Shown here: in pieces, positions 48 to 29,748 of the stretch
Numbering within the stretch: position 1 is the stretch's first letter
Layout: each line of letters opens with the position of its first letter
Source of the DNA: an uncultured Bacteroidota bacterium
GTDB taxonomy: Bacteria; Bacteroidota; Bacteroidia; Flavobacteriales; Flavobacteriaceae
Direction: 5' to 3'
NCBI GenBank assembly: GCA_903819815.1
Contig: CAIJFC010000191.1
Coordinates: forward strand, 1-33,039
Length of the DNA stretch: 33,039 nt
The notes under the pieces: model-generated
What the model was told of the DNA's origin: nothing
The model's input: the letters and a program-made list of their open reading frames with translations, nothing else
The model's database searches: none
Program-made: the position numbers and the translations under genes

Positions 48-596
48 ATGAAAACTATTGTTAAATATTCATTATTAATTGTTTCTATATTCACTATTTC
101 TTCTTGTGGATCAGGTAAAGTTTCTGCAACTGAAAATGCAAAAGAAATTGTTTTGCCAATAAAAAATTTCCAATCTGATAAATCTTTTTTTAGATCAATT
201 TCTAGTGGAACAAGTCCAAATATGTCTTTTGCGAAAGAATTAGCTTTTAAAAACGCAGCTAACGAAATTGCAAAAACAATCGATGTAAGAGTAAAATCTT
301 TATTAGAAGATTATGCAAGACAATCGGAAATAGACTCTTCAATAGATTATAAGTCGGAAGCAGAGCGTATGGCAACAATTTCGACAGATCAATCATTAAA
401 AAATGCTAAAATTGTTCAAGAAAAAATATTTCAAAACCCTGATAAAACCTATACTTACTGGGTTGGAGTTGAATTGAGCAAAGAAGATGTTTTTAATACA
501 TTGAAAAACAACATTTCATCGTCAAAAATAAAAGCACTTCATGCTGAAAAAGTTGATTTTAGAGAAACGTTCAACAAGAATTTTGAAGAAAAATAA
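48..596 (+). CDS. LPP20-like lipoprotein
   Basis: ORF with lipoprotein signal (MKTIVKYSLLIVSIFTISSCGSG); LPP20-like pattern AKELAFKNAANEIAKTIDVRVKSLLEDY ... KTYTYWVGVELSKEDV. Confidence 0.75.
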   Translation: MKTIVKYSLLIVSIFTISSCGSGKVSATENAKEIVLPIKNFQSDKSFFRSISSGTSPNMSFAKELAFKNAANEIAKTIDVRVKSLLEDYARQSEIDSSIDYKSEAERMATISTDQSLKNAKIVQEKIFQNPDKTYTYWVGVELSKEDVFNTLKNNISSSKIKALHAEKVDFRETFNKNFEEK

Positions 597-597
597 T

Positions 598-2547
598 ATG
601 AAGAAAATAATTTTTTCTTTAATCGGGCTGTTTTTGTTAAATGCTTGTTCCTCTTCTTTAAACAAAAACAGCAAACAACCAAAATGGTTGAGCGAATCCT
701 ACAGGAACATGGTATTTCCCTCGGATCAATATTATGTAAATTTTGACCAAAAAAAATTATCTGATTTTTCATCTAAATCTGAGAAAGATAAAAAGAATGA
801 ATTTAGTAGAGATTTGGAAACGCAATTGGTAAAACAAATTGTAGATAAGATTTCGTTTTCTACTTCGTCCTCAGAGCTTCAAACAGAAAATAAAAAAATA
901 GATTACATCTCTTCCGTACTTCGCGAATCTTCACAATCGGCTTCTGCTACTTTAGTTGGAAAAAAGGAAGAATATTATCTAGACAAATCAAATAAGACTA
1001 TTTCGGCTATTATTTATGTTAAAAAATCGGACTTAGCCAAAGGTTATAAATCGACTTTAAATTCGAAAATAGATTTATTAAAGAGTAAAATTGACCAATA
1101 TTTGACTAGTAATTTGCAAGATGTTAAATCTCCGTTAAGTGAAATCAATTCGGAAATTAAATCGATTCAAAATGATATTGAAATTTATACCATTATCATT
1201 TCCGGAACCGATTCGAATTTGATGGATAAATACAATAATATGTATTCATCCTATTCAAAATTGAATGCTTCTTTTGGCAATGATTCTAAAATAATTGATA
1301 ATTTAATAAATGAAGCAGATCAATTGTATCAAAACGAATCTAGTTTTGAAAGCATTATAGCAAAATTAAATGAAGCTTTATTATATGATGCTAATAATGC
1401 CAAAGTACTTGGTAAAATTAAAGACTATAAATCGAAATGGACTTTAAAGTTAACTTCAGAATTAAATTCGAAAACTAGTAACAAAGATTATTTATCAGCA
1501 ATTAAAATTTTAGATAAATTAGTTGTAGTTGATCAAAATAACGATACTGTTTATAGAGAAAAGCAAAAGAATTTAATTGAAGATTATTTTAGAGAAACCG
1601 TTTTTAACATCAAAAATTTAGTAAAAAATGGTTCGTTAAATGAGGGTTTAAAGCAATTAAATGATATTTCTAAATATTCTTATGTTGACCTTGATGAATT
1701 TAATAATATAAAATCACAATTGGAAGCAATTAGTATTGACAATGCAATTGGTACTATTGAGAATCACATTTACAATAAAAATTATGAACTTGCCGCAAGC
1801 GTTTGTAAGAGAAATTTGATTTTATATCCAAAAAACAAAAAATTAAAACAATTGTTTGAAGAAGTTTTAACTTTAGTTGCTGAAAATAAGAAAGAAGAAT
1901 TAATGAAAACTCGACCAACGAGATATGTAGTTGAGTTAAATTATAGTTTATCTCATTTGCCTGAAGTAATTCAAGATAAAAACAATCCCAATTTACCACC
2001 TTTGGATGTTTCTAAAATTAAAATAAATAATCAATTCAAAAATTTTGAATTAGGGTTGTATAAAAAAATTCATATAAAGGATAAGAATACAAACTTTAGT
2101 GATAAGCATAAATTTTCTTATTCTCAAATTGGGGTTAGAGTTGGTTATTTAGATCTTTCTAAGCAGCCATTTTACAATTATTTTAGTTCATCGCAAAACA
2201 CTTATTATTTTAAAGAAAGTAAAATAACTCAGATAGAAGCAAGTTTTATTTGGCATAGTTTTTTTATGTTTAATATAGGTTATTTAACGGAAACATTACC
2301 TGAAATTAAACCAGATTTCAGTATTGTTAGTAAAGAAAACAGCTATTTATGTTCCACAATTGGATTGAGAATTCCTTTTGATTTTATTCATTTAACAGCC
2401 GATGTTACCGGATATTCGAATGGAAGCGAAATCACGAAAGTTTATGCCAAAGCTGGAGTTTCTATAAATATTGGATTTAGTAAAAAATTTAACGGAGAAG
2501 ATAAAAAGTATATTGAAAACGAAGTTTCTATAATCAGAAATAATTAA
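598..2547 (+). CDS. Lipoprotein with N-terminal LPP20-like region, helical/TPR-like middle and C-terminal predicted beta-barrel region
   Basis: ORF track starts at 541, but the internal Met at 598 begins a clear lipoprotein signal (MKKIIFSLIGLFLLNACSSS) 1 nt after the upstream stop; C-terminus has alternating amphipathic strands (SQIGVRVGYLDL, IEASFIWHSFFMFNIGYL, VYAKAGVSINIGFSKKF). Confidence 0.75.
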   Translation: MKKIIFSLIGLFLLNACSSSLNKNSKQPKWLSESYRNMVFPSDQYYVNFDQKKLSDFSSKSEKDKKNEFSRDLETQLVKQIVDKISFSTSSSELQTENKKIDYISSVLRESSQSASATLVGKKEEYYLDKSNKTISAIIYVKKSDLAKGYKSTLNSKIDLLKSKIDQYLTSNLQDVKSPLSEINSEIKSIQNDIEIYTIIISGTDSNLMDKYNNMYSSYSKLNASFGNDSKIIDNLINEADQLYQNESSFESIIAKLNEALLYDANNAKVLGKIKDYKSKWTLKLTSELNSKTSNKDYLSAIKILDKLVVVDQNNDTVYREKQKNLIEDYFRETVFNIKNLVKNGSLNEGLKQLNDISKYSYVDLDEFNNIKSQLEAISIDNAIGTIENHIYNKNYELAASVCKRNLILYPKNKKLKQLFEEVLTLVAENKKEELMKTRPTRYVVELNYSLSHLPEVIQDKNNPNLPPLDVSKIKINNQFKNFELGLYKKIHIKDKNTNFSDKHKFSYSQIGVRVGYLDLSKQPFYNYFSSSQNTYYFKESKITQIEASFIWHSFFMFNIGYLTETLPEIKPDFSIVSKENSYLCSTIGLRIPFDFIHLTADVTGYSNGSEITKVYAKAGVSINIGFSKKFNGEDKKYIENEVSIIRNN

Positions 2548-2559
2548 AAAATGAATATT

Positions 2560-4266
2560 ATGAAAAAAATTACAGTTCTTTTAGTGGTATTACAATTGTT
2601 TGCAAGTTGTAGTTTGTTTAAATCATCAAATGATTTAGAATTAATTCCTTTTGAGCAAAAAGGAAAGTATGGATATTTTGATTTAGAGGGTAAAATTGTT
2701 ATCAACCCTCAATTCGCTTTTGCAACTGCTTTCAGAGAAGATTTAGCATTAGTAAGATTATCTGGGGATGATGGAAAATGGGGTTATATTGATAAAAAAG
2801 GAAAATTTGTAATTAATGCCACTTACAAAGATGCCACTGTTTTTCAAGATGGTTTAGCTTGGGTGGTTACAGATAATGCTGCTCCTTCAGCAATTGATAA
2901 AGATGGGAAAATTAAATTTACCCTAAAACAAGCTAATGATGTGAAATTATTTTCAGAAGGTTTAGCAGGTTTTTCTGTAAAAGACACCACCAATAACGAA
3001 ACTTGGGGATTTGTAGATAAATCTGGAATTTCAACTGTAAACCCACAATTTTTTGACATTGGAGATTATAGCGAAAGTAAATGTGCGGTAAAAAATAAAG
3101 AAGGAAAATGGGGATTTATAGATAAATCAGGAAAAATTGTTATTAATTATCAATTTGATGAAGTTGAAAAATTTAATAACGGTAAGGCGGTTGTTTATTT
3201 AGACAATAAAGCAGGTGTTATTGATGAGGATGGTAAATACACTGTTAATCCTCAGTATAAAAGCGCTCAAAATGATGGTGATTTATTCTTGATTGCTCAA
3301 GAAGACAAATATGGCTGGTGTGATGAAGAAGGAAAGTTTGTTATTAATCCACAATTTGATTCAGCTCAACCATTTAACGATAGTAAATTAGCATGTGTTG
3401 AAAGTGGAAATAAGTATGGTTATATTGATAATGCGGCTAAAATTATGATTAATCCACAATTTGATTACGCCTCTCCATTTTTTGGAAAAGTGGCATTGGT
3501 TAAATTAGGAGATAAATTTGGATTGATCGATGAGGAAGGAAAATATAAAGTAAACCCTCAGTTTGATGGAATCGGACTTGATGTATTTGCATTTTTCAAC
3601 AATACTAGTATCAAACAATCTATTACAACAGATTTCTTGGATGTAAATGCTATACTTAATGTAATTAATATTGAGCGTCCAGAAAACCTTAGTTTTAATG
3701 ATGGATTTAATTCTATCATAACAAAATTAAATAAAACTGCTGATGATTTCAGCGCTTATGATACTAATCATTCTGTATTTACTTATAAAAAAATAAACAA
3801 TGATGCCTCTTATTCATTTATGTTTACTGGGAATGTAAAAGCAATGAATAATGACACGTACGAGTTTTATATTACAGATGAAAAACCTCAAACTTTTGTT
3901 TATTCAATTAATTTGCATGGAAAAGCATATGGAAAAGCGGAATCTATTCAAAAAGCATTAGAAAACAAATTAACAGGTTTTACCAATGTTAAAAAAGGAT
4001 ATGCGCAAGGTAGATATGCTAGTATTTTTAAAGGACCAAATTCTTATGTAATTACATGGAATACAGGTGATAGCGAGCCGTTATTTTATATTTGCAACAA
4101 AAATTTTGACATAACTCACTTTTCAAGTTTAATTGTAGCAGATAAGGAAAGTTCTTACACGGAAGAAAGTGATTACGTAGAAGAACCTGGTTATGCTGCT
4201 GACTCAACTGCTGCTCCTGCTTATGATGCACCTGCTGCTGAGGCGGCAGCTCCAGCTGCAAAATGA
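2560..4266 (+). CDS. WG-repeat lipoprotein (about nine WG repeats) with Ala/Pro-rich C-terminal tail
   Basis: Lipoprotein signal MKKITVLLVVLQLFASCSLF (start 2560; alternative 2551); repeats such as KYGYFDLEGKIVINPQF, KWGYIDKKGKFVINATY, KYGWCDEEGKFVINPQF; tail AADSTAAPAYDAPAAEAAAPAAK. Confidence 0.85.
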   Translation: MKKITVLLVVLQLFASCSLFKSSNDLELIPFEQKGKYGYFDLEGKIVINPQFAFATAFREDLALVRLSGDDGKWGYIDKKGKFVINATYKDATVFQDGLAWVVTDNAAPSAIDKDGKIKFTLKQANDVKLFSEGLAGFSVKDTTNNETWGFVDKSGISTVNPQFFDIGDYSESKCAVKNKEGKWGFIDKSGKIVINYQFDEVEKFNNGKAVVYLDNKAGVIDEDGKYTVNPQYKSAQNDGDLFLIAQEDKYGWCDEEGKFVINPQFDSAQPFNDSKLACVESGNKYGYIDNAAKIMINPQFDYASPFFGKVALVKLGDKFGLIDEEGKYKVNPQFDGIGLDVFAFFNNTSIKQSITTDFLDVNAILNVINIERPENLSFNDGFNSIITKLNKTADDFSAYDTNHSVFTYKKINNDASYSFMFTGNVKAMNNDTYEFYITDEKPQTFVYSINLHGKAYGKAESIQKALENKLTGFTNVKKGYAQGRYASIFKGPNSYVITWNTGDSEPLFYICNKNFDITHFSSLIVADKESSYTEESDYVEEPGYAADSTAAPAYDAPAAEAAAPAAK

Positions 4267-4347
4267 GATTGAGCAGATTAGTATTTATTGACCAACAAAT
4301 AGCTTCACTTTTAATTATAGAAAATCATTTTCTTTGATGTTTTTATT

Positions 4348-7300
4348 ATGAAAAAAAAATTATTAATTACTTTCCTAATTGTTTTTAGCATTCAATTACA
4401 AGTAAATGCTCAATTTCGTCAACTTCGTTTAGCAAATGAAGAATTGGTTAAAGAAAATTTTGACAAGAAAAAAGCGTTTGAAAAAATTGAAAAATATGAA
4501 AAAGAATATGGTTTAAAGCCTGAATCTAAATATATTAGAAGCAAATACATGCGTAAAGTTTCTGATAACATTCAAACGATTGACAGTGCGTACACCTATT
4601 TTTTAGAGGCATATAGTGGTATAGAATACTATGACACAAAAGTGAAAGAAGAACTTTGTAAGGATATTCTTTTATGTGAGACAAATAATACCATGGAAAA
4701 CAATGAGTTTGAATTGTTTTTATTTTCAAGATATACAAAAGAAAAAAATTTAACCATAGTAGAATCATTTATTGATAAATACCCTAGAAATATTTTCTAC
4801 AATAAAGCGATTAACGTTCGAGATAGCTTGGAATTTGAAAAAGTAAAGCCATTAAATGATGAATTTGTTTTGAATGAATTCTTGAAAAAAAGGCCAAATT
4901 CCAAGTTTTATTATACTGCCGAAGATTTGATGTATACTGTCGCATTTACCAAGGCGAAAGAGTCAAATTCAGTTGGAAAATACAAAGATTACATTAAGAC
5001 GTACCCAAATTCTCCTAAAATTAAGGAAGCAATTGACTTTGTAAGTTCTAAAAATTGGGAAGAAATAGAATCAAAAAATAATAGAGATTTATTTCAAAAG
5101 TTTGTGGATGATTATCCATCAAGCAAATATGTTGGACAAGCAAACCAAAAAATAGAAGATATTGATTGGAATGCGGCTCTAGTTTCAGATAGTTTGTCCA
5201 ATTTTGAAGAATTTGCCTCCAACTATCCAAACTCTTCTAAAATAGAATTAGCCAACAGTAAAATTAAAGAGTTCAAAGAGGTTGTTTTACCTTATTTAAC
5301 TAAAAATAAAAAATATACCTTACTAAATATTGGTACACTAAAATTTATTGGAGACGTAGAATATGATTCTATGACAGCATTGCCAAAAGGCAAATTCATC
5401 GTTTCTAAATATAATAAATACGGTGTAATTGATATTTTAGCCAATAAAATTATACCAACTACTTACGATTGTATAGAAAATTCAGGGGATTTTTTCATCA
5501 CTAAATTAGGGAAAAATTATGGCGTTTTAAATGATCAAGGTCAAAAAATTGTAGATTTTTCTTTCGAATCTATTACTAAAACAGCAAATAATAACTTTAT
5601 AGTTACTAAAAATATTAATAATGTTAAAAGTACTGTTGGGTTAATTTCATCCAAAGGAGAAGGAATTTTAGAAGCCATTTACACCTATATTTCTGAAGTG
5701 GATGCAACAACATTTAATGTAACATTTAATAACCAATGCTACCTTATTGACCAGAGTGGAACTGTAATATCTCAAAAATACACTTCCTTAGATCCATTAA
5801 GTTATGTGTCTAGTACAAATTTATATTTAAAAGCAGGATTAAAAAACAAACAAGGTTTGATAAATATAAAAGGAGAAGTTGTTATTCCATTATTATATGA
5901 GTCATTAAATGAAGCCGGAGATTATATTATTGTAAGCAATACCATTCCTAAAGTGGGTAGTCGTTATGGAATTATTGACCAAAAAGGAAAAGTGGTTTTA
6001 GAGCTTAAATATAAAAGTATTTATTTTTGTGGAAACAATTTATTTTCAATTAATACCAATAACTTACCAAAATCTACTGTTAATGATTGCAAATTATACA
6101 GTTTGACTTCCAATTCATTTTTAACAAAAGACAGTTTTGATTCTATTAATCAAGTTGAAAATGGATTGTTAATGGTTGAAAAAAATGAACTTGTAGGTTA
6201 TATTAACGAACTTGGTGAAACGGTAGTAAGCCCTGTTTATCAACCTTATTATGGAGAAGAAAGAGGTACTGGAGGAGATGGAGGAGATGGAGGAGAAGAA
6301 AAATGTTATGTTGGATTAAATAGTGATGAGAACATTGCTAATAATGACATTTATAATAAAACAGAATTATTACTAGTTCAATTAGATGAAAAAATTGGGT
6401 ATATCAACTTTAAAGGGGAAATAATTATTCCAATAATCTACACCTATGGCAGTAATTTTTACAAAGGCATGGCTTCAGTTTCTGACGAAAATCAGAACAA
6501 GAGCATTATTGATACCAAAGGGAAAGTTATCTTGGAAAATGCAGAAATAGTGTATTATTACAACAATTCAAAATATGCAATTGCGAAACAAGAAAATTCG
6601 TTTTATAAAATAGATACTGAAACGCATAAAGCGGAGCTATATACTTTAATGAAGGAAATGGATTACATCGATCATTACAAAAAATATAAGATTATTACCT
6701 ATAAAGATGTGCTAGTTTATGTGACTTCTAAAGATCAAATATTAATGGCCAAAGGAATTGATTTTTCTGATTATAATTACAATAAAAAAATAGAGGTAGC
6801 TAGAAATTTTTATTATTCAGCAGAATACGATCAAGCTATTTCAGAACTTAAGTCATTGTTTAATGAAAAAAGTGATGTTTACGATGTTCCATTATTATTA
6901 GGAAAATGTTACAAAGAAAAAGGCGACACCTATTCAGCTATTGATTATTTTAACCAAGCCGTTGCTATAGATCCTAATAATACCGAAGCATACAGCGAAA
7001 GATATCAATTGAATTGGAAAAGAGATTATTGGAGTGATTCAAAAAATGACATTGTAAAATTAATAAGCCTAAGCAGTGAATTTGACGAATCATTAACGTT
7101 TAGTTTAGGATATTGCAATAGTAAACTAAATAATTATAATGAGGCATTTGAAAATTATACTAAACTATTAAAATTCAATCCTAAACATTCCACAGCTTAT
7201 AATAATAGAGGAGTAATTTACGGAATTAGAGGCGACCATCAAGCCGCCCTAAGCGATTACATGAACGCCTTAAAAAATAGTAAATATGAAGACGACGAAT

Positions 7301-7440
7301 CCAAAGGTTTGTATCTCAATAATGCTGCAAATGAGCTCAATAAACTAAATAAAAAAGCGGAAGCCTGTGTATATTGGTCTAAAGGTGCCGCATTAGGAAA
7401 TGCTGAATGTATTCGTAATAAAAAATATAATTGCAAGTAA
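4348..7440 (+). CDS. Secreted WG-repeat and TPR protein
   Basis: Signal peptide MKKKLLITFLIVFSIQLQVNAQ; N-terminal 'YPNSSK' helical repeats, WG repeats (KYGVIDILANKIIPTTY, RYGIIDQKGKVVLELKY, KIGYINFKGEIIIPIIY), C-terminal TPRs (GDTYSAIDYFNQAVAIDPNNTEAY). Confidence 0.85.
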   Translation: MKKKLLITFLIVFSIQLQVNAQFRQLRLANEELVKENFDKKKAFEKIEKYEKEYGLKPESKYIRSKYMRKVSDNIQTIDSAYTYFLEAYSGIEYYDTKVKEELCKDILLCETNNTMENNEFELFLFSRYTKEKNLTIVESFIDKYPRNIFYNKAINVRDSLEFEKVKPLNDEFVLNEFLKKRPNSKFYYTAEDLMYTVAFTKAKESNSVGKYKDYIKTYPNSPKIKEAIDFVSSKNWEEIESKNNRDLFQKFVDDYPSSKYVGQANQKIEDIDWNAALVSDSLSNFEEFASNYPNSSKIELANSKIKEFKEVVLPYLTKNKKYTLLNIGTLKFIGDVEYDSMTALPKGKFIVSKYNKYGVIDILANKIIPTTYDCIENSGDFFITKLGKNYGVLNDQGQKIVDFSFESITKTANNNFIVTKNINNVKSTVGLISSKGEGILEAIYTYISEVDATTFNVTFNNQCYLIDQSGTVISQKYTSLDPLSYVSSTNLYLKAGLKNKQGLINIKGEVVIPLLYESLNEAGDYIIVSNTIPKVGSRYGIIDQKGKVVLELKYKSIYFCGNNLFSINTNNLPKSTVNDCKLYSLTSNSFLTKDSFDSINQVENGLLMVEKNELVGYINELGETVVSPVYQPYYGEERGTGGDGGDGGEEKCYVGLNSDENIANNDIYNKTELLLVQLDEKIGYINFKGEIIIPIIYTYGSNFYKGMASVSDENQNKSIIDTKGKVILENAEIVYYYNNSKYAIAKQENSFYKIDTETHKAELYTLMKEMDYIDHYKKYKIITYKDVLVYVTSKDQILMAKGIDFSDYNYNKKIEVARNFYYSAEYDQAISELKSLFNEKSDVYDVPLLLGKCYKEKGDTYSAIDYFNQAVAIDPNNTEAYSERYQLNWKRDYWSDSKNDIVKLISLSSEFDESLTFSLGYCNSKLNNYNEAFENYTKLLKFNPKHSTAYNNRGVIYGIRGDHQAALSDYMNALKNSKYEDDESKGLYLNNAANELNKLNKKAEACVYWSKGAALGNAECIRNKKYNCK

Positions 7441-7441
7441 T

Positions 7442-8524
7442 ATGAAATACCTGTTTTACCTTTCTCTTTTATTTATTTTTGAGGGGTTAAATGCCCAAAC
7501 AGATTCGAACAATAAAGAAGCAGATCTTTTTTATAAAGATGATAATTCTAATAGTAATCCTCAAAATAATCCGGTTAATAAAACTAATAATACAGCGCTT
7601 CAAACTAAAAAATACAGTTTTGAAAAGTCTAATTTTAGTGATTTTATAACTAACAATAAACCCATTTTTTTAACTGGAAAATCTTCTAAGCCTATTAAAA
7701 ATTCGGATTATTATAGTGATGATAATACTCAGTTATGTTATAATTCTATTTATGAAGTTGAAAATTATTCAAATGAACTTCGAAAGATTCCTCTTACCGA
7801 GAGAGACATTTTATATTTTTCAAAAATTATAAATGATGCTGTTATTGAAGCAAAATCAAACGACAAAACATATTATGTGTACAAAGTTGCATTTGATTAT
7901 AATCAAGTAAGTAGCACCCCAATGGAGTTAAATGACGACTTTTTAACACCAGTAAATCTCTATTTTTCCAACTTTAAAAACAATTCTTCAATTCAGCAAT
8001 CGGTTAAGTGTTTTGTTAAAACAAGGTTAGACGAGTATAACTGGAAAAGCGAATTTGATAAAGAAGATTATGTCAATTTAGTCACTCAGAAAATCGTAAA
8101 TAATTTAAAGGGGGATATAGGTCAAAACGGCAACTCTTATTACAAAATTTACGAAGGAATATTTGGAAACTATAACTTTGAAGGTACTACCTATGACGTA
8201 GAATTGGCTCAACAAATTGGAGTTTCGGATTTCTTTACTAACGACTTTGATTATAGATTGTATTATAAAGGAGATAGAAATTATAATAATTATATTCAAA
8301 GCAATTTAGAATTTAAATGCAATCCTACCGTTGCCAGACAAATTGCTGATCTTTTTGATTCTGAAAGAAAATTAAATATAAAATTAGAATTAATTCCAAC
8401 TTCTTCTAATTCTAATTTGTGTATTTGCAGTAGTTGTTATGAAAACAATTTTATGATTAAATCATTGGTTATTTGTCCCGATACCAATTTTAGCGAAAGT
8501 AATTCTATTCGAATTTATTTTTAA
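7442..8524 (+). CDS. Secreted protein of unknown function
   Basis: Start corrected to 7442 (MKYLFYLSLLFIFEGLNAQ, signal peptide), 1 nt after the upstream stop; C-terminal LCICSSCYE cluster. Confidence 0.65.
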   Translation: MKYLFYLSLLFIFEGLNAQTDSNNKEADLFYKDDNSNSNPQNNPVNKTNNTALQTKKYSFEKSNFSDFITNNKPIFLTGKSSKPIKNSDYYSDDNTQLCYNSIYEVENYSNELRKIPLTERDILYFSKIINDAVIEAKSNDKTYYVYKVAFDYNQVSSTPMELNDDFLTPVNLYFSNFKNNSSIQQSVKCFVKTRLDEYNWKSEFDKEDYVNLVTQKIVNNLKGDIGQNGNSYYKIYEGIFGNYNFEGTTYDVELAQQIGVSDFFTNDFDYRLYYKGDRNYNNYIQSNLEFKCNPTVARQIADLFDSERKLNIKLELIPTSSNSNLCICSSCYENNFMIKSLVICPDTNFSESNSIRIYF

Positions 8525-9135
8525 TGTTCATGAAATGGGCTTTCATTTTCATTCTAAATATAAGTGCTTTTTCTCAATCCGATCCTTGTTTTTATTTTCA
8601 ACAACAAACTAAGGAAAAGTTAACGGTAATTTCAAGTAAAATAGAAGCAGTAGAGAATCCATTTTACTTATCAAAAAAAGAACTATTAAGCATTGTTGTC
8701 CCTGAATATATTATGTATTCAATTTCAATGAATGACTTAGAAGTGATTCTAGTAAAATCAAATCTAGTGTTTAATAATAATAATTTTGATTTGTCTTTTG
8801 GCCCTTTTCAAATGAAAATAAGTTTTATTATTAATACTTTAAGTCAGGCGCCTTTAAGCATTATAAATGATCCAATATTATTAAAAATAAAAAACGATAC
8901 AAAAGCGATAACTTCTACCCAAATCGATTATTTAAATAAAATTGAAACCCAATGGAAAGTGTTGTGTCTATTTGAATATTGCAATAAAAAGACGTATGAA
9001 AAATATTCTTTAAATGGACTTTATACACTATATAATAGGGGAGACATCAATAAAAAAGCAACTATTTTCAAAAAAATAAAATGCAAAAACAGCACTTATG
9101 AAGAGTGGTGCGCTGAATTTCTCCGACTCCTGTAA
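8524..9135 (+). CDS. Small secreted protein with lysozyme-superfamily-like signature (tentative)
   Basis: TAATG overlap with upstream gene (alternative start 8530); signal MKWAFIFILNISAFSQ; VVPEYIMYS...NDLEV...FDLSFGPFQMKISF. Confidence 0.6.
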   Translation: MFMKWAFIFILNISAFSQSDPCFYFQQQTKEKLTVISSKIEAVENPFYLSKKELLSIVVPEYIMYSISMNDLEVILVKSNLVFNNNNFDLSFGPFQMKISFIINTLSQAPLSIINDPILLKIKNDTKAITSTQIDYLNKIETQWKVLCLFEYCNKKTYEKYSLNGLYTLYNRGDINKKATIFKKIKCKNSTYEEWCAEFLRLL

Positions 9136-9182
9136 TTAAAAATTAATCAATAAAAGAATGGAATATAACAACAATAAACGAG

Positions 9183-10625
9183 CTATTTTTTATCAATAAA
9201 TAAAATTTGATTTGGCTTTATTTTATTGTTACGCAATTTATTTCTTTTTTTTAAGGCAACAATACTGATGTTGAATTTCTCAGCAATTTCTCCTAATGTA
9301 TCTCCGCTTTTTACTTTATAAGTAATTTTTTTGATTCGTTTTAAAATCACTTTGGCAGGAACTACTTCTACAGCAACTGCTGTGTCTACAGCAATAGTAT
9401 CAGGTTCTATTGGGTCTTCAAAATTTAATTCTGTACTTTCAGGGTTCTCTATTAAATAGGAATTGCATTTTTTTAAAGCTTCAATTAATAACGTTCCTTT
9501 TAATTCCGAACCTTTACCGTTTAAGTGAATTCCATCATTCATTGTTAATTTATTTGCCTGCCAAAGATCCATTGAACGAGCCCCGCCTGAAACCAAATAC
9601 CAATCCCAAAAACCACATTGATTTTCATAAGCAATGGTTTTTACCATTTGAGAAAAATCTTTGCTTGCAGTAACATTTCGTTTTCTAAAATTCATGTCTT
9701 GTGCAGAAGTTAGAATGATAGAAGCACTAGGATTTGCCTTTTTTACTTTTGTTATCACTTTTTCAATTTCAGATTTTAATTGTTCTGGAATTTTATTGGT
9801 ATATAAAAAATCGTTAGTTCCATAATCCACAATAACTAAATCTGGATTTAAATAAGCTGCTTGCTCTTCATATTTATCTTCATATAAAACAGATTTGTAT
9901 TGACAAGCTCCAACTCCAGCATTGTGCCAAACGGCAGCAGAATCATCTGAATTTGACAATGACATTCCGTATAAAGTAAATTGATTTTGAATTTCATTAG
10001 TTTTATTTAATAAAAATTTAATTTTACTAAATTTAGATGGTAATTGGTATTTTAAAACATCGCCAGTTTTCGATAAAAACACAGCAGCAATGGTATCGGC
10101 TATAATAATTGGCTCGTAACTTTCGGCTATATTTGAATAAAAAACAGTTAAAATAGTGTTTTGTGATGAAGGCGATTTATTAAAAGAAATTTCAAATGTA
10201 GCTTTATCATCCTCTGTTTTTGCCGACATACCCCGTACTCCTAAAGTCAATTTTGGAGGTAGAATATAGCTCTTTCCATAAGTCCAAGTTCCGGAATGTG
10301 TCGATTTGTAAAAACTGGCATTGTACGATTTTACAATCGAAAATGGCTGAATAAGTCCAATTCCTCCATCTCCCAATAATTCTTGAACTAATTGACGACA
10401 CTTATTTGGTAAATTCTCATTTTGAAGATGACTATCGCCTAAGTGCAAGACCGAAAATCTTTTATTTGAATTCCAATTACTATAAAATGTATTTAGAACC
10501 TTTGAATCTTTAAATTGAATAGCATTAAAATCGTTCTTGATAAATGATTGTTCTGTGGTTTGACTAAAAATCAAACCACATAACATCAATAAAAATATAG
10601 TAATAATAGATTGTTTACTTTTCAT
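9183..10625 (-). CDS. SGNH/GDSL-family hydrolase or acyltransferase with C-terminal LysM domain
   Basis: SGNH blocks VLHLGDSHLQNE, IVDYGTNDF, NDGIHLNGKG; C-terminal LysM ITYKVKSGDTLGEIAEKFNISIVALKKRNKL...ILFI. Confidence 0.87.
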   Translation of the reverse strand: MKSKQSIITIFLLMLCGLIFSQTTEQSFIKNDFNAIQFKDSKVLNTFYSNWNSNKRFSVLHLGDSHLQNENLPNKCRQLVQELLGDGGIGLIQPFSIVKSYNASFYKSTHSGTWTYGKSYILPPKLTLGVRGMSAKTEDDKATFEISFNKSPSSQNTILTVFYSNIAESYEPIIIADTIAAVFLSKTGDVLKYQLPSKFSKIKFLLNKTNEIQNQFTLYGMSLSNSDDSAAVWHNAGVGACQYKSVLYEDKYEEQAAYLNPDLVIVDYGTNDFLYTNKIPEQLKSEIEKVITKVKKANPSASIILTSAQDMNFRKRNVTASKDFSQMVKTIAYENQCGFWDWYLVSGGARSMDLWQANKLTMNDGIHLNGKGSELKGTLLIEALKKCNSYLIENPESTELNFEDPIEPDTIAVDTAVAVEVVPAKVILKRIKKITYKVKSGDTLGEIAEKFNISIVALKKRNKLRNNKIKPNQILFIDKK

Positions 10626-11994
10626 TTTTTGTCTTTACTAGAGTGTCTTTTTTTATTTTAACAGACTCTGTTTTGGATGGAGTAATATTAAAATTTGAAT
10701 TTAAAAATTTATTTTCCTGATAAGTGGTATAAGATGAATTAATTACGAATACATTATGAGCAAATATGATATTATCGATGCTGTATTTTTTCATAATATT
10801 CTTAATGTTTGATTTTAAATAGCGATAATCTACTATGTAAACATCTTCATAATGGGCGCAAAGAAAAGGAGAAAATGCATTTCCATAAGAGTCTTTAATG
10901 ATAAGTATTTTTTTGCCATTTTTTACATCCGATTTAATATGCATCATTGGGTAATCGCCTCCTAAAAAAACGCCATACGAATTACCGCCTCTTGCATATT
11001 CTGAATATAATTTTGTCTTTTTTTCAATGGTTAAATTTTCATTGAAGTAGGTTGCCTTGGTAGTATTTGGAATTTTAAAATATTCTACATAATCTTTATT
11101 TTGTTTTAAATCTTCACTACGTGTAAAATTATATAATGTCCCAATAAAGTTATTGATTTTTTTAATTTCGAACTTTTCAATTGCTAGCGGTTCTATTCCT
11201 GCAGAACCACAAAAAGCTAGGTATGCATAGTATGCGCCGCGTCCTGTCCAATGATGATCGGTATTAAACTGAATATATTCATCTTGATGTTTTTCTAATT
11301 CGTCATAGGCTTTTACACATTTTATTGACGGATTCATTATGCTGTATAAGTAATTTATACTGGTTTTCTCGCGGTCCTTTTTAAAAGAATTAGGTAAATT
11401 AAAATCTGACCCTACAGGAATTGCCATGCAATAAACGTTTACATTTGGCCCCAGTGCTGTTTTATAATTTGAAATTAAAGCAGCAAATTTACTTAGCTTT
11501 TTCCTCGATCCATTGTAAATTTGAATCGCTTTACTTTTATAAACAATTACCGAGTTTATATTTTCATATGCCTCACTTGTGGTATCAATTGCCGTTGAAT
11601 CGTTTAACATTTCATCACCCTTTTTGGCATTATAACCATCCTTTTTATTTGGGGTTACCTTAATTATTGTTGTTTTTGGAAGCGCTTTTGTTTTCGTAAA
11701 ATATTGTATTTCATCATTTTTAATTCCTTTGTATTTTTTTATTTCAGTAGCTAATTCAATGATATCATTTCTATAAATAAAATTATCAGAGTAATACAAA
11801 TCAATGTCTTCAAAATATTTTCCGGACAATAAACGCTCTTCAGTTAATACTGGAAATTGTTTTAAAGCTCTTTTTTCATCCACAGATATTTTTTCCTTTG
11901 GTAAAACAAGAAAAAGCACCCCAACTGTAATCAAAATGATTACAAAAAGAAAGGAGTTTAGTCTCAAATAAAGGTTTATAAAAAATGTTTTCAT
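10615..11994 (-). CDS. DHHW-family protein (AlgJ/AlgX-like SGNH acetyltransferase)
   Basis: N-terminal TM; FNTDHHWTGRGAYYAY and ILIIKDSYGNAF motifs; 11-nt overlap with the downstream SGNH-LysM gene. Confidence 0.85.
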   Translation of the reverse strand: MKTFFINLYLRLNSFLFVIILITVGVLFLVLPKEKISVDEKRALKQFPVLTEERLLSGKYFEDIDLYYSDNFIYRNDIIELATEIKKYKGIKNDEIQYFTKTKALPKTTIIKVTPNKKDGYNAKKGDEMLNDSTAIDTTSEAYENINSVIVYKSKAIQIYNGSRKKLSKFAALISNYKTALGPNVNVYCMAIPVGSDFNLPNSFKKDREKTSINYLYSIMNPSIKCVKAYDELEKHQDEYIQFNTDHHWTGRGAYYAYLAFCGSAGIEPLAIEKFEIKKINNFIGTLYNFTRSEDLKQNKDYVEYFKIPNTTKATYFNENLTIEKKTKLYSEYARGGNSYGVFLGGDYPMMHIKSDVKNGKKILIIKDSYGNAFSPFLCAHYEDVYIVDYRYLKSNIKNIMKKYSIDNIIFAHNVFVINSSYTTYQENKFLNSNFNITPSKTESVKIKKDTLVKTKNEK

Positions 11995-11996
11995 AA

Positions 11997-13400
11997 TTAA
12001 AATCGGAAGTAAATAAATGGATTATACGAACTTCCAACTAATAATATTACAGAGCAAGTTAGTAAAAATACATTTAGAACTATTGTTATTAAAGGAACAA
12101 AATGATTTAATGCAGAAATTGAATTTATGAATTTATAAAACCAAGTATATATTGGAACACAAAGAATAAATGCCAATCCAAGCCAATAGATATTTTCAAA
12201 GAACATGTTTTCTACTTCTAAAGTATAAAGCTCTTGGTTCGTGAAATTAAACAATAATTTCATGAAATAAATTAACTGATTAAAGTCGGTGAAGTAAAAA
12301 ATTGCCCATCCTATTATTATAAAAAATAAGGCATAAATGTGGGTAATAATCCTAGGCAGTCTTTTTAAAATGGTATTTAAAAGTACTTTTTCAATTAATA
12401 ATAATATTCCAAAATACATTCCCCAAATTATAAAATTCCAACTGGCGCCATGCCATAACCCGGTTAAAGCCCAAACGATAAGAATATTCCTGAAAATGTA
12501 TTTTTTATTTCCCCCAAGTGGAATATATACGTAATCTTTGAAAAAAGTTCCTAATGAAATATGCCATCTTCTCCAAAAATCCGTTATTGAAGTAGATATA
12601 TAAGGGTATTTAAAATTTTCATGATAATGAAATCCAAACATCCATCCCATTCCAATGGCCATGTCAGAATAGCCTGAAAAATCAAAATAAATTTGGATAC
12701 TATAAGTTATAATTCCAAGCCATCCGCCTAAAACAGTAATAGTTGTCAAATCGCTAGATAAGTAGTGGGAACAAATTTCTCCGGCAATATTTGCAATGCA
12801 AACTTTTTTGAATAGACCTATACAAAATCTGGATACACCATTATTAAAATCAGTCCAACTAAATATTCGTTCATTGATTTCTTGTGCAATATGAGAATAC
12901 CTTACAATTGGTCCTGCAACTAATTGATGATAAAGAGATACGAATAATAAGAAATTTAGAAATGATTTCTGAGCTTTTACCTCCCCTCGATAAACATCGA
13001 TGGTATAGGATATAGTTTGAAAAGCATAAAAAGAAATTCCAATTGGCATTAAGAAACCAGGTTCTTTGAAGTTTAAATTGGTGATAGCATTTACATTTTG
13101 TACAATAAAATCAGAATATTTAAATGTAATTAAAATACCTAAATTAAAAATCAAAGTACTGTAAAGACCTAATTTAGCAATTGGTTTGCCAAAATGCTTT
13201 TCTATAAAAAGCCCATTTATATAATCTATAAATGATGATAAAATTAATAAGCCGACCCAAATTGGTTCGCCCCAAGCATAAAATAGTAGCGAAAAAAGAA
13301 CTAAAATTATATTTTTTATTTTTCTGTTTTTTACACTGAAATAGAAAATTAAATTTAGAGGGAGAAATAAAAAAATAAAAAATAAACTAGAAAATACCAT
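11997..13400 (-). CDS. MBOAT family O-acyltransferase (AlgI-like)
   Basis: Polytopic membrane protein; DFWRRWHISLGTFFKDYVYIPLGGN and ALTGLWHGASWNFIIWG motifs. Confidence 0.92.
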   Translation of the reverse strand: MVFSSLFFIFLFLPLNLIFYFSVKNRKIKNIILVLFSLLFYAWGEPIWVGLLILSSFIDYINGLFIEKHFGKPIAKLGLYSTLIFNLGILITFKYSDFIVQNVNAITNLNFKEPGFLMPIGISFYAFQTISYTIDVYRGEVKAQKSFLNFLLFVSLYHQLVAGPIVRYSHIAQEINERIFSWTDFNNGVSRFCIGLFKKVCIANIAGEICSHYLSSDLTTITVLGGWLGIITYSIQIYFDFSGYSDMAIGMGWMFGFHYHENFKYPYISTSITDFWRRWHISLGTFFKDYVYIPLGGNKKYIFRNILIVWALTGLWHGASWNFIIWGMYFGILLLIEKVLLNTILKRLPRIITHIYALFFIIIGWAIFYFTDFNQLIYFMKLLFNFTNQELYTLEVENMFFENIYWLGLAFILCVPIYTWFYKFINSISALNHFVPLITIVLNVFLLTCSVILLVGSSYNPFIYFRF

Positions 13401-13655: not shown

Positions 13656-13663
13656 GTTTTTTG

Positions 13664-13736
13664 TGGTACCTCCAGGGTTCGAACCAGGGACACATGGATT
13701 TTCAGTCCATTGCTCTACCAACTGAGCTAAGGTACC
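13664..13736 (-). tRNA. tRNA-Phe (anticodon GAA)
   Basis: Reverse complement folds as a cloverleaf: GGTACCT acceptor, GCTC-AGTTGGTA-GAGC D arm, ATGGA-CTGAAAA-TCCAT anticodon arm, CCTGG-TTCGAAC-CCTGG T arm, AGGTACC+A; CCA not encoded. Confidence 0.97.
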
Positions 13737-24836: not shown

Positions 24837-26528
24837 ATGAGTGAAACAGCAGTAAAAACAGGACATCCAAAAGGACTTTGGGTATTATTTGGAACAGAAA
24901 TGTGGGAACGTTTCAATTTCTACGGAATGCGAGCCATCTTAACCTTGTTCTTAGTAAATTCATTGATGATGAAAGAAGAAGAAGCGTCATTAATTTATGG
25001 TGGATTTTTAGGGCTTTGTTATTTAACACCAATGTTAGGTGGATTTATTGCCGATCGATTCTTTGGAAATAGAAATTGTATTTTACTGGGAGGTTTGATG
25101 ATGGCGATTGGACAATTTTTATTGTTTACAAGCGCAAGTGTGTTTGGAACAAATTTATCTTTGGCTAATACGTTAATGTGGTCAGCATTAGGAATTATCA
25201 TTTTTGGAAATGGATTCTTTAAACCAAATATTTCTTCAATGGTAGGAAGTTTATATCCAAAACAAGAAAAAACAAAGCTAGATACTGCTTTTACTATTTT
25301 CTATATGGGGATTAACTTAGGAGCTTTCTTAGGGCAAACTATATGTCCTTATTTAGGTGATGAAGTAGTAAATGGAGTTCAAAATGTTCACGCTTTTAAA
25401 TGGGGTTTCTTAGCCGCTTCAATTGCAATGCTAATAGGTACTTTAGTATTTTATGTATTAAAAAATAAATATGTAGTTACTCCAGAAGGAAAACCTCTTG
25501 GTGGATTACCAAAATATAATGACACTGCAGATTATGAAGAAGGCGAGTCACAAAGCGCTGTTTTTTCAACTAAATCTTTGATAGGTGCTGTAGTTGCTTT
25601 TGTAATATTGTTTTTTGCTTTTAGATTTCTATTAGATGGAGATAATTTTATTAAAACCATAATCTATCCAATTATTTATGCAAGTGGATTGACATTAGCT
25701 GGATTGATTGTTTCTGATAGTTCGTTGACTAAAGTGGAGAGAGATAGAATTTTTGTAATTTATATAGTTGGATTTTTTATTATATTTTTCTGGGCCGCTT
25801 TCGAACAAGCAGGTTCTTCTTTAACCTTTATAGCAGCAAATCAAACCGATCGAACTTTTATGTTTGGATGGCAAATGCCAGCTTCTATGGTTCAAGTTTT
25901 TAACGGAATTTTCGTTTTTGGTTTTGCATTACCATTCAGTATTTTATGGGATAAATTAAGAGCTAACGGAAGAGAGCCATTGTCTACAGTGAAACAATCA
26001 ATCGGATTGGGATTAATTGCTTTGAGTTATTTTATTATCGCTTACAACGTAAAAGATCTAGGAAATAGCGGATTATTAGCTATCAAATGGTTAATTCTTT
26101 TATATTTAATTCAAACATTTGCTGAATTGTGTTTATCACCAATCGGATTGTCATTGGTAGGAAAATTATCACCTAAACGTTTCGCTTCATTATTATTTGG
26201 AGTTTTCTTTTTGTCAAATGCTGCAGGTTATGCTTTGTCTGGAACTTTAGGTTCAATTATGCCAGCAACAGGAGATAAATTTTTGAAAGCAGAAAAACTA
26301 GGAATCGATTTACAAGGTGTTTTAGATAAAACAATAACTCCAACAACGGAACAATTGTCAATATTAGAAGTAAATCAAATTAGTCCAACTAACCCCGTAT
26401 TTGCTGGTTTTGAAATTCATAATTTATTTGAATTCTTCATGGTATTCGTAGTTTTAACAGGAGTTGCTGCATTGATTTTATTTGCTTTAACACCAGTAAT
26501 TAAAAAGATGATGCACGGCATTAGATAA
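24837..26528 (+). CDS. Peptide MFS transporter (POT family) 1
   Basis: EMWERFNFYGMRAILTLF (ExxERFxYY-like), FGNGFFKPNISSMVGSLY, FWAAFEQAGSSL. Confidence 0.94.
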   Translation: MSETAVKTGHPKGLWVLFGTEMWERFNFYGMRAILTLFLVNSLMMKEEEASLIYGGFLGLCYLTPMLGGFIADRFFGNRNCILLGGLMMAIGQFLLFTSASVFGTNLSLANTLMWSALGIIIFGNGFFKPNISSMVGSLYPKQEKTKLDTAFTIFYMGINLGAFLGQTICPYLGDEVVNGVQNVHAFKWGFLAASIAMLIGTLVFYVLKNKYVVTPEGKPLGGLPKYNDTADYEEGESQSAVFSTKSLIGAVVAFVILFFAFRFLLDGDNFIKTIIYPIIYASGLTLAGLIVSDSSLTKVERDRIFVIYIVGFFIIFFWAAFEQAGSSLTFIAANQTDRTFMFGWQMPASMVQVFNGIFVFGFALPFSILWDKLRANGREPLSTVKQSIGLGLIALSYFIIAYNVKDLGNSGLLAIKWLILLYLIQTFAELCLSPIGLSLVGKLSPKRFASLLFGVFFLSNAAGYALSGTLGSIMPATGDKFLKAEKLGIDLQGVLDKTITPTTEQLSILEVNQISPTNPVFAGFEIHNLFEFFMVFVVLTGVAALILFALTPVIKKMMHGIR

Positions 26529-26553
26529 TAATAAAAAATATTTTTATATCTTT

Positions 26554-26589
26554 CAAACCTACAAGAAACCCTTGTAGGTTTGTTTTTTT
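26554..26589 (+). terminator. Rho-independent terminator between POT1 and POT2
   Basis: CAAACCTACAAG-AAACC-CTTGTAGGTTTG (12-bp perfect stem) followed by T7. Confidence 0.88.
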
Positions 26590-26601
26590 AAATCAAAAAT
26601 T

Positions 26602-28260
26602 ATGTGGAAAAGTCATCCTAAAGCATTGCCTTACTTATTTTTATCTGAAATGTGGGAACGTTTTGGGTATTATTTAATGATCGGAATTTTTACTTTGTAT
26701 CTTAAAGATGTCGAAGCTGGTTTCGCTATGACAGAAAAAGAAGCTTCCGATTTGTACGGAACTTTTATTGCGTTGGTTTTTTTAACCCCTTTCATTGGCG
26801 GATTAATTGCCGACCGATATCTTGGTTATAAAAAATCAATCGTAATTGGTGGAATAATGATGGGTGCTGGTTATTTTATGATGGGAATTCATAGTTTGCC
26901 TATGTTATATCTTGCCATGACTTTAGTAATCGTTGGAAACGGTTTTTTTAAACCGAATATCTCTACTTTATTAGGTAATTTCTACAACGAAGACCAATAC
27001 AAAGAAAAGAAAGATGAAGGATACAACATTTTTTACATGGGAATAAATGTTGGTGCTTTCATTTGCAACTTTTTTGGTGCTGCTTTACAAATTTTACTCG
27101 GTTGGCAATATGCTTTCATGGCAGCAGGTCTAGGTATGTTTATTGGCGTTATTGTTTTTCTTTTAGGAACAAAACATTATGGCGATAAAACAGATAAAAA
27201 AGGAATTCAAGAAGGGGATATGCCATTTTCTAAAATTGTATTGTACATTTTAGTCCCATCAGTAGTTTTTGGAATTATTGGCTGGTTAATTAAAGGAGTT
27301 CAATCAGATATTAATTTGGATAGTGCAATTTTTGGTTCTGATAGTACGGATGCTTTTATTTTTGCGTGTCTTCCAATTGTTTACTTTTATGGAAGCCTCT
27401 ATTTTAAAGCAAAACAAGAAGAAAAAAGACCAATTGGAGCTTTGCTTTCTATTTTTGCTGTGGTAATTTTATTTTGGGCTGTTTTCAAATTAAATGGGTC
27501 GGCATTAAATACCTGGGCAGATAGATATACCGATAGACAAGTTACAGGAACTACAGAGAAAGTATTTTCTACTTTAGTTCAATCAAAAGAAATAACGTAT
27601 GAAAAAGCATCAACAGAATTATATGATGATAAGTTTCGACTTCAAAAAGAAAACGGAGAAGTAAAAAAAGTTGTTGATTATCCTGTTTATTTTAGAAATA
27701 CAAAAAACGAGACTTTACCTAAAGAAGGAAGTACGATAAGCGTCTGGGTTACTAGTTTAAGCCAATCAATAAATCCAGGCTGGGTTATTATTTTAACGCC
27801 GCTGGTAGTTGCTTTTTTCACCTTTTTAAGAAGTAGAAAAAGAGAACCCTCAACTCCAACTAAAATTGCATTTGGATTATTAATTTCAGCATTATCCGTA
27901 TTAGTAATGGTAGCGGCAGTTCATATTGGAACCAATGGAATGGAAAAAGTATCAGTATGGTGGTTGGTTGCTAATTATGGAATCATTACCATCGGGGAAT
28001 TATTCCTAAGTCCAATGGGATTATCGATTGTTTCAAAATTATCACCAAAAAATATCACTGCCTTAATGATGGGCGGATGGTTTTTATCCACCTCTATTGG
28101 AAATAAATTATCAGGTGTTTTAGCAAGTATGTGGGATCAATATGACGACAAAGCCAATTTCTTTTGGGTGAACTTCGGTTTATTAATGTTTGCAACCCTT
28201 TTAATGTTTGCCTTAGTGAAAAACTTAAATAAAGTGATGAAAGACCACGGAATCAATTAA
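26602..28260 (+). CDS. Peptide MFS transporter (POT family) 2, with large TM7-TM8 insertion
   Basis: EMWERFGYYLMIGIFTLY, VGNGFFKPNISTLLGNFY, LSPMGLSIVSKLSPKN; divergent TM7 FWAVFKLNGSAL. Confidence 0.93.
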   Translation: MWKSHPKALPYLFLSEMWERFGYYLMIGIFTLYLKDVEAGFAMTEKEASDLYGTFIALVFLTPFIGGLIADRYLGYKKSIVIGGIMMGAGYFMMGIHSLPMLYLAMTLVIVGNGFFKPNISTLLGNFYNEDQYKEKKDEGYNIFYMGINVGAFICNFFGAALQILLGWQYAFMAAGLGMFIGVIVFLLGTKHYGDKTDKKGIQEGDMPFSKIVLYILVPSVVFGIIGWLIKGVQSDINLDSAIFGSDSTDAFIFACLPIVYFYGSLYFKAKQEEKRPIGALLSIFAVVILFWAVFKLNGSALNTWADRYTDRQVTGTTEKVFSTLVQSKEITYEKASTELYDDKFRLQKENGEVKKVVDYPVYFRNTKNETLPKEGSTISVWVTSLSQSINPGWVIILTPLVVAFFTFLRSRKREPSTPTKIAFGLLISALSVLVMVAAVHIGTNGMEKVSVWWLVANYGIITIGELFLSPMGLSIVSKLSPKNITALMMGGWFLSTSIGNKLSGVLASMWDQYDDKANFFWVNFGLLMFATLLMFALVKNLNKVMKDHGIN

Positions 28261-28263
28261 ACT

Positions 28264-29748
28264 ATGGAAAAAGAACTTACATTAGAACAAATTCAAAACT
28301 TTAAAGGAAAATATCCAAAACAACTTTGGTATTTATTTACTGTAGAAATGTGGGAACGCTTCTGCTTTTATGGAATGCGTGGTGTATTAACCTTTTTTAT
28401 GGTTGATCAGTTATTATTAAAAGATGATGCCGCTAATTTGCAATATGGAGCAATTCAGGCATTTGTTTATGCGTTTACTTTTATTGGAGGAATCTTTGCG
28501 GATAAAGTTTTAGGCTTCAAAAAATCTTTATTTTTCGGTGGAATTGTAATGATTCTTGGAAATTTACTAATCGCATTTGCTCCTCAACAAATGTTCTATT
28601 ATGGAATAGCATTTTCAATTATTGGAACAGGATTTTTTAAACCAAACATATCTTCAATGGTTGGTGAATTATACCATGAAAAAGATCCGAGAAGAGATGC
28701 AGGTTACGGAATGTTTTATGCTGGTATAAATATTGGAGGACTGTTTGGAGGAGCTCTTTGTATTTATTTAGGAAAATTTCACTCTTGGACATTGTGTTTT
28801 TTGGCAGCTGCAATTGTAATGATTGCGGGATTAGTAACTTTTTTATTTACAAAAAAGCATCTTGGACCAATTGGAGATTCTCCACTTTTGGCCTTGCCAG
28901 AATCTAAAAGAAAAGTTAGAGAAATAGCAGTTTATGCTGGTTCGCTTTTAAGTATTCCATTTATTTATACAATGGTAATTAATACAGATTATACAGATTA
29001 CTTCATGTATACAATCGGAATAATTGCTATTGGATATTTTATTTTTGAATTATTAAAATTGGGAGAAGTAAGTTTGCAAAAAAAACTAATAGCTGCTTTT
29101 TCTTTTATCTTTTTCTACTTTTTATTTAATGCAATTTATGAACAAAGTGGAGGTTCATTATCACTTTTTGCCAAAGATAATTTAAATAATAATTTACTTG
29201 GATTCACAATTGATCCAAATATAGTAAACAATAGCTCCAATACTTTTTTTGTAATTATTTTAAGTCCTTTAATCGGATTATTATGGTTGTGGTTGGCAAA
29301 AAAGAAAATAGAACCTAATACATTAATTAAATTTGGAATAGGGTTTTTATTTCTTTCAGCTTCTTTCTTTTTATTTTATTACACTAAATTTTTTGCAAAT
29401 TTTGAAGGATTGACATCATTAAATCTTTTTACATTTGCCTATTTTGTGACTACAATTGGAGAACTTTGTCTAGGTCCAATCGGAATGTCTATAATAACAA
29501 AATTATCACCAAAAAGATTGTTTGGAATGATGATGGGATTATGGTTTTTAGCAAGTGCTTTTGGTCAATTAGCTGCAGGAAAATTAGGCGCAGCAATTTC
29601 ACAATCAAATGGTGGAACGACTTTGTTATCTAAATTGCAATCTTATACAGATGGATATTATACATTGGCTATTTACGCTCTAATTGCGGGTGTGATTTTA
29701 ATAGTAATTTCACCTTTTATTAAAAAATTAATGCAAGAAGTCAAATAA
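28264..29748 (+). CDS. Peptide MFS transporter (POT family) 3
   Basis: EMWERFCFYGMRGVLTFF, IGTGFFKPNISSMVGELY, AIYEQSGGSL, LGPIGMSIITKLSPKR. Confidence 0.94.
   Translation: MEKELTLEQIQNFKGKYPKQLWYLFTVEMWERFCFYGMRGVLTFFMVDQLLLKDDAANLQYGAIQAFVYAFTFIGGIFADKVLGFKKSLFFGGIVMILGNLLIAFAPQQMFYYGIAFSIIGTGFFKPNISSMVGELYHEKDPRRDAGYGMFYAGINIGGLFGGALCIYLGKFHSWTLCFLAAAIVMIAGLVTFLFTKKHLGPIGDSPLLALPESKRKVREIAVYAGSLLSIPFIYTMVINTDYTDYFMYTIGIIAIGYFIFELLKLGEVSLQKKLIAAFSFIFFYFLFNAIYEQSGGSLSLFAKDNLNNNLLGFTIDPNIVNNSSNTFFVIILSPLIGLLWLWLAKKKIEPNTLIKFGIGFLFLSASFFLFYYTKFFANFEGLTSLNLFTFAYFVTTIGELCLGPIGMSIITKLSPKRLFGMMMGLWFLASAFGQLAAGKLGAAISQSNGGTTLLSKLQSYTDGYYTLAIYALIAGVILIVISPFIKKLMQEVK

Follow-up and report, generated by a model that had tools for sequence, protein, structure and literature searches.

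Six exported-protein genes and a predicted MBOAT-SGNH acyltransferase cassette share an island beside tRNA-Phe in an uncultured Bacteroidota bacterium

Do the six consecutive genes for exported proteins at the start of contig C191 form a system of their own, or do they belong to something larger? The contig, analysed here over its entire length of 33,039 bases (the window), comes from the 366-contig, 86% complete draft genome of an uncultured Bacteroidota bacterium (G000), whose gene content suggests a Flavobacterium-like member of the Flavobacteriaceae, and an earlier note had taken the six plus-strand open reading frames (g1–g6, positions 48–9135) for a self-contained cell-envelope assembly. 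The set is indeed rare, coherent and undescribed within the literature that we searched, but it is not self-contained: three minus-strand genes that converge on g6, encoding a GDSL-LysM protein, a DHHW-family protein and an MBOAT protein (9183–13400; hereafter the cassette), lie on the same island, are similarly rare and stay linked to it in a distant genome. The statement that the run holds no recognisable enzyme has to be qualified likewise, as g1–g6 sit with these three enzyme genes. It is therefore well supported that the six genes, although real and rare, are one half of a nine-gene unit spanning positions 48–13400 (Table 1). Our tentative reading is that this unit is accessory, has probably moved horizontally and encodes an MBOAT-SGNH module for polymer acylation together with a previously undescribed set of six envelope partners.

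Linkage of g1–g6 to the acyltransferase cassette

Presence and absence were scored in 200 genomes of the same genus. The g2 gene occurs in three of them (G000, G035 and G129), with no further occurrence among 398 genomes sampled from the order, and the DHHW gene in four, namely the same three and G124 (one additional match was weak). Were genomes independent of one another, this coincidence would have a probability of 3e-6; related genomes, however, are not independent. Draft completeness ranges from 77 to 97%, so that an individual absence is open to doubt, although the absences as a whole are not. G124 cannot count against the linkage, because its contig stops within the GDSL gene. On that contig (L027 5743–13017), a repeat-rich exported protein of more than 2400 residues adjoins hflX and the cassette.

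Conservation of gene order, which the earlier note had proposed as a check, holds in part: all six genes are found together in G035 only, and the run is cut to g1–g3 in G129. The two halves are convergent in the window and in G035, and they stand in tandem in G129, where MBOAT, DHHW, GDSL, a glucosaminidase, g1, g2 and g3 follow one another in a single direction (g4–g6 are not beside them) at a locus separate from the tRNA-Phe and coaX of G129. The core genes SurA, CorC and coaX of G129 are only 61–72% identical to those of the window. Against this background the cassette is more alike than most of the core genes tested (MBOAT 88%, DHHW 75% and GDSL 72% identity), whereas g1–g3 are less alike (54–55%), meaning either that the cassette moved later than g1–g3 or that g1–g3 evolve fast. 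The carriers are scattered on a SurA tree of 24 genomes, with G166, G160, G218 and G109, which lack the set, lying among G000 and G035, and at least three gains or losses are needed to explain the distribution. Overall, the link between the cassette and g1–g6 is well supported.

The tRNA-Phe site and the limits of the unit

In the window, the tRNA-Phe gene lies between MBOAT and coaX, and the nine genes occupy the interval between its 3' side and g1. An empty version of the site is present in the close relative G160, where an amylase gene (92% identical to the left-flank gene of G035), tRNA-Phe and coaX are contiguous. In G035, the terminator hairpin of the tRNA is found on both flanks of the nine-gene block, while each of the seven further genomes searched has it at a single site or lacks it; the flanking repeat is a feature seen in G035, as the window starts at the contig edge, 47 nucleotides before g1, and its own left flank lies outside the data. 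Other cargo is found at the same site in G166 (an fn3/repeat protein and an AraC regulator) and in G218, where genes for a MerR-type helix-turn-helix protein and a ParB-N/N6-methylase stand directly beside tRNA-Phe (L063 9600–12290), which suggests that a mobile element uses this tRNA-Phe site too. Pfam-type searches revealed no integrase among the nine genes. Taken together, the nine genes are probably an accessory island at the tRNA-Phe/coaX site that has moved horizontally.

A site of this kind also invites the strongest competing explanation, that two independent cargoes (a separate outer-membrane lipoprotein/WG scaffold, g1–g6, and an unrelated acyltransferase) have come to lie side by side because accessory genes accumulate next to tRNA-Phe. 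The variability of the site, the convergent orientation of the halves and their different rates of divergence all fit this explanation, but in G129 g1–g3 adjoin the cassette at another locus altogether, and both halves are rare (3/200 and 4/200) and yet coincide. We consider it somewhat unlikely.

The left boundary of the unit is visible in G035. The earlier note had suspected an extension upstream and had asked whether a CsgG/LpoB-like gene lies immediately before g1. Such a gene is absent there, and g1 is instead preceded by a good Bacteroidota-type promoter (TTG-N19-TAATTTTG; L005 9379, on the same contig as G035 C6), a terminator, and unrelated genes for type IX-secretion-tagged and other exported proteins, which contradicts the extension. 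Only in three other genomes was a CsgG-like/LPP20 neighbourhood seen, around remote homologues of g1. Scanning for consensus sigma-70 promoters and terminators gave no excess over shuffled sequence, and a 47-nucleotide stretch shared by the window start and contig C237 was dismissed as the A+T-rich leader of another gene.

The six exported proteins

All six plus-strand genes carry export signals, as had been proposed, with three lipoproteins (g1–g3) followed by three Sec substrates (g4–g6), and the spacing given for them is correct (1, 12, 81 and 1 nucleotides, then a TAATG overlap). The Sec signals of g4–g6 end in A-Q or S-Q, in agreement with the Bacteroidetes Q-rule (PMC5837995). Gene order is identical in G035, whose orthologues share 71–87% amino acid identity with the window at ratios of nonsynonymous to synonymous substitution rates (dN/dS) of ~0.07–0.16; because this indicates purifying selection, g1–g6 are real, selected proteins. 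The two small proteins g5 and g6 evolve faster (dN/dS ~0.16) than g1–g4 (0.07–0.12).

The family labels fared unevenly. Pfam matches bear out the WG label of g3 (PF14903, 8 repeats, 1.6e-59; 87% identity in G035, 55% in G129) and the WG and TPR labels of g4 (PF14903 in 4 stretches, 1.7e-23; TPR 4e-16), while the C-terminal domain of g3 gave no match to any known family. Neither g1 (86% identical in G035 and 55% in G129, dN/dS ~0.08) nor g2, both of which had been called LPP20 proteins, matches the LPP20 model (PF02169) at E values up to 1. A remote 194-residue homologue of g1 reaches that model at E 0.088 only, and a direct profile comparison of g1 with LPP20 gave a probability of 68, largely from the signal peptide and lipobox region, and was not used as proof. 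In g2, helical repeats (residues ~145–430), the only confidently modelled part, are followed by a beta-rich C-terminal domain of ~210 residues, seen in the sequence as a run of amphipathic strands, for which the beta-barrel label is not established; the N-terminus was modelled as beta-alpha-alpha-beta-beta at low confidence (predicted local distance difference test, pLDDT, ~50) with no PDB match, and the fold search with g2 returned nothing at an E value of 0.001 or below. The resemblance to the LPP20/FlgP/FlgT-like lipoproteins (PMC12222027) accordingly consists of the compatible element order of this modelled N-terminus and of the remote g1 homologue, which adjoins a clear LPP20 lipoprotein, whereas g1 and g2 themselves lack a match to the family. 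In G090, G138 and G023 (L019, L020 and L021), that homologue (194–202 residues) is divergent from genes for a 544-residue TPR lipoprotein, which we read as CsgG-like, and a 452-residue LPP20 lipoprotein, a neighbourhood that is possibly a second LPP20 system.

Full-length g4 was found only in G000 and G035 among 12 genomes searched, and g5, for which profile searches found no family, in the same two genomes only among 60 relatives. The lysozyme-like signature once ascribed to g6 could not be demonstrated: the protein has no Pfam, NCBIfam, PDB or phage match, its structure model (pLDDT 45) is unusable and gave no fold match, and its DFSxGxFQMKxSF-type pattern is present in no other genome among 198 and in no viral contig. 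A phage or plasmid origin of g6 was discarded, as there was no phage match and the single plasmid match was meaningless.

Table 1 Coordinates of the nine-gene unit and the adjoining tRNA gene in the window.
Feature	Position	Strand	Description
g1	48–596	+	182-residue lipoprotein (lipobox SSC); remote relative of a 194-residue LPP20-like lipoprotein
g2	598–2547	+	649-residue lipoprotein (lipobox NAC); possible LPP20/SHS2-like N-terminal domain
g3	2551 or 2560–4266	+	WG-repeat lipoprotein (lipobox ASC)
g4	4348–7440	+	1030-residue Sec-exported protein; TPR-like N-terminus, WG repeats, C-terminal TPRs
g5	7442–8524	+	360-residue Sec-exported orphan; conserved C-x-C-x2-C motif (Cys 327, 329, 332)
g6	8524 or 8530–9135	+	201–203-residue Sec-exported orphan
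GDSL-LysM	9183–10625	-	SGNH/GDSL hydrolase fold (PF13472, 7.9e-14); C-terminal LysM (1.2e-12)
DHHW	10615–11994	-	DHHW-family SGNH protein (PF14286, 2.6e-58)
MBOAT	11997–13400	-	MBOAT O-acyltransferase (PF03062, 1.4e-27)
tRNA-Phe terminator hairpin	13616–13662		Copies in G035 flank the whole nine-gene block
tRNA-Phe (gaa)	13663–13736	-	Island on its 3' side

Outside the island, the window contains three genes for POT-family peptide transporters in a row, after a DPP IV-type peptidase gene (24837–29748).

A possible role in polymer acylation

Judged by its sequence, the cassette qualifies as a predicted MBOAT-SGNH acyltransferase, since it combines an MBOAT protein, a shuttle hexapeptide and linked SGNH triad motifs, and all of its catalytic motifs are intact. 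The MBOAT protein has the conserved-His motifs WRRWH (276) and LWHG (315) and ends, in the window and in G129, in FIYFRF, an acyl-shuttle hexapeptide of the FXYXXF type; TDHHW (245) and KDS (367) of the DHHW protein are invariant in four genomes, and the GDSL-LysM protein retains the blocks GDSH (63), GTND (269) and DGIH (364). To our knowledge, six envelope genes such as g1–g6 do not accompany Pat systems. In peptidoglycan O-acetylation by PatA/PatB, the Tyr of a C-terminal peptide is acetylated and hands the group to an SGNH protein (PMC12148441). The window resembles this system in placing an MBOAT protein with a C-terminal FXYXXF beside an exported SGNH protein, but that partner belongs to the DHHW family, a second, GDSL-LysM protein is present, the cassette is linked to six envelope genes, and the assignment of a substrate is a prediction from genes. 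PF14286, KDS and TDHHW are shared with Bacillus cereus PatB1, a DHHW-family O-acetyltransferase of the secondary cell wall polysaccharide for which the roles of these motifs have been described (PMC9487903), although the host of the window is Gram-negative, with another gene neighbourhood and another likely polymer. Alginate and cellulose acetylation (AlgIJFX, WssF-I) likewise pairs MBOAT and SGNH proteins, whereas the island has a LysM and no polymer synthase. Also comparable are Bacteroidota MBOAT-GDSL(LysM) clusters, in which an MBOAT protein (31–34% identical) stands with one or two GDSL proteins, but g1–g6 are absent and nothing at these loci matches the DHHW protein of the window. One is on contig C97 of G000 itself (L127 6014–9750), where a 264-residue SGNH-like protein, an MBOAT protein ending in QPFIYFQF and a GDSL-LysM protein follow a CapA-like gene; another, in G053, also has a glucosaminidase (in the order glucosaminidase-SGNH-MBOAT-SGNH).

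On the acylation reading, the MBOAT protein would load an acyl group, probably acetyl, on the Tyr of its FIYFRF terminus, the Ser of the DHHW protein would accept it and hand it on to a glycan in the periplasm, for which the GDSL-LysM protein would in turn serve as a second transferase or else as an esterase. Peptidoglycan is the likely acceptor, because the GDSL protein carries a LysM, glucosaminidase genes are neighbours in G129 (between GDSL and g1) and in G053, and the island has no glycan synthase. The mature g1–g3 proteins start with CGSGK, CSSSL and CSLFK; because they lack the acidic signal described for surface export of lipoproteins (PMC5080379), they probably face the periplasm. Together with g4 as a WG-TPR scaffold and the small exported g5 and g6, these inward-facing lipoproteins would be outer-membrane and periplasmic partners that position the reaction or couple the modified wall to the outer membrane. 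The identity of the acyl group, the substrate, and the location and role of g1–g6 are what we infer here.

Several points weigh against this reading. The halves need not have travelled together throughout, because they diverge differently toward G129; g4–g6 are less firmly tied to the cassette than g1–g3, because they are known from two genomes only; convergent transcription means that the nine genes are not one operon; and peptidoglycan is a putative substrate, favoured from gene context. In addition, MBOAT-GDSL sets without g1–g6 are widespread in the order, and g1–g6 are therefore not generally required and would specialise a common machine.

The polymer could instead be a surface polysaccharide or exopolysaccharide, with g1–g4 forming the outer-membrane side of the pathway by analogy with the TPR and beta-barrel components that export alginate or cellulose. 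Secondary wall polymers and alginate are indeed substrates of DHHW and AlgX-type SGNH proteins (PMC9487903), and g2 does join helical repeats to a beta-rich domain, but that domain is small and has no structural model, the GDSL protein bears a LysM, and the island contains no glycosyltransferase or polymer synthase, all of which makes this alternative rather improbable. Finally, the patchy island beside a tRNA gene and its faster-evolving orphans might recall competition or defence cargo, with g5 or g6 as an exported toxin or wall hydrolase and the lipoproteins as immunity or delivery parts, but the island matches no anti-phage defence model, contains neither a toxin gene nor a secretion-system gene, gave no match to a lysozyme and is under purifying selection in every gene, which makes this very unlikely.

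Acyltransferases of this kind are known; what is undescribed, within the literature searched, is the link to a set of LPP20-like and WG-repeat lipoproteins on a mobile island. A bolder and more doubtful form of the acylation reading has the MBOAT-DHHW-LysM acyltransferase of this horizontally moved module acting through an outer-membrane complex of these lipoproteins, which, if true, would represent a previously undescribed outer-membrane arm of polymer acylation and would give WG-repeat proteins a pathway for the first time. Like the small LPP20-like lipoproteins, these proteins are common, and in the same literature both groups have hardly any assigned pathways; the tie to a chemically understood acyltransferase gives them a testable hypothesis. 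It also suggests that, in Bacteroidota, acylation of the wall is an accessory trait that strains can exchange at a tRNA hotspot.

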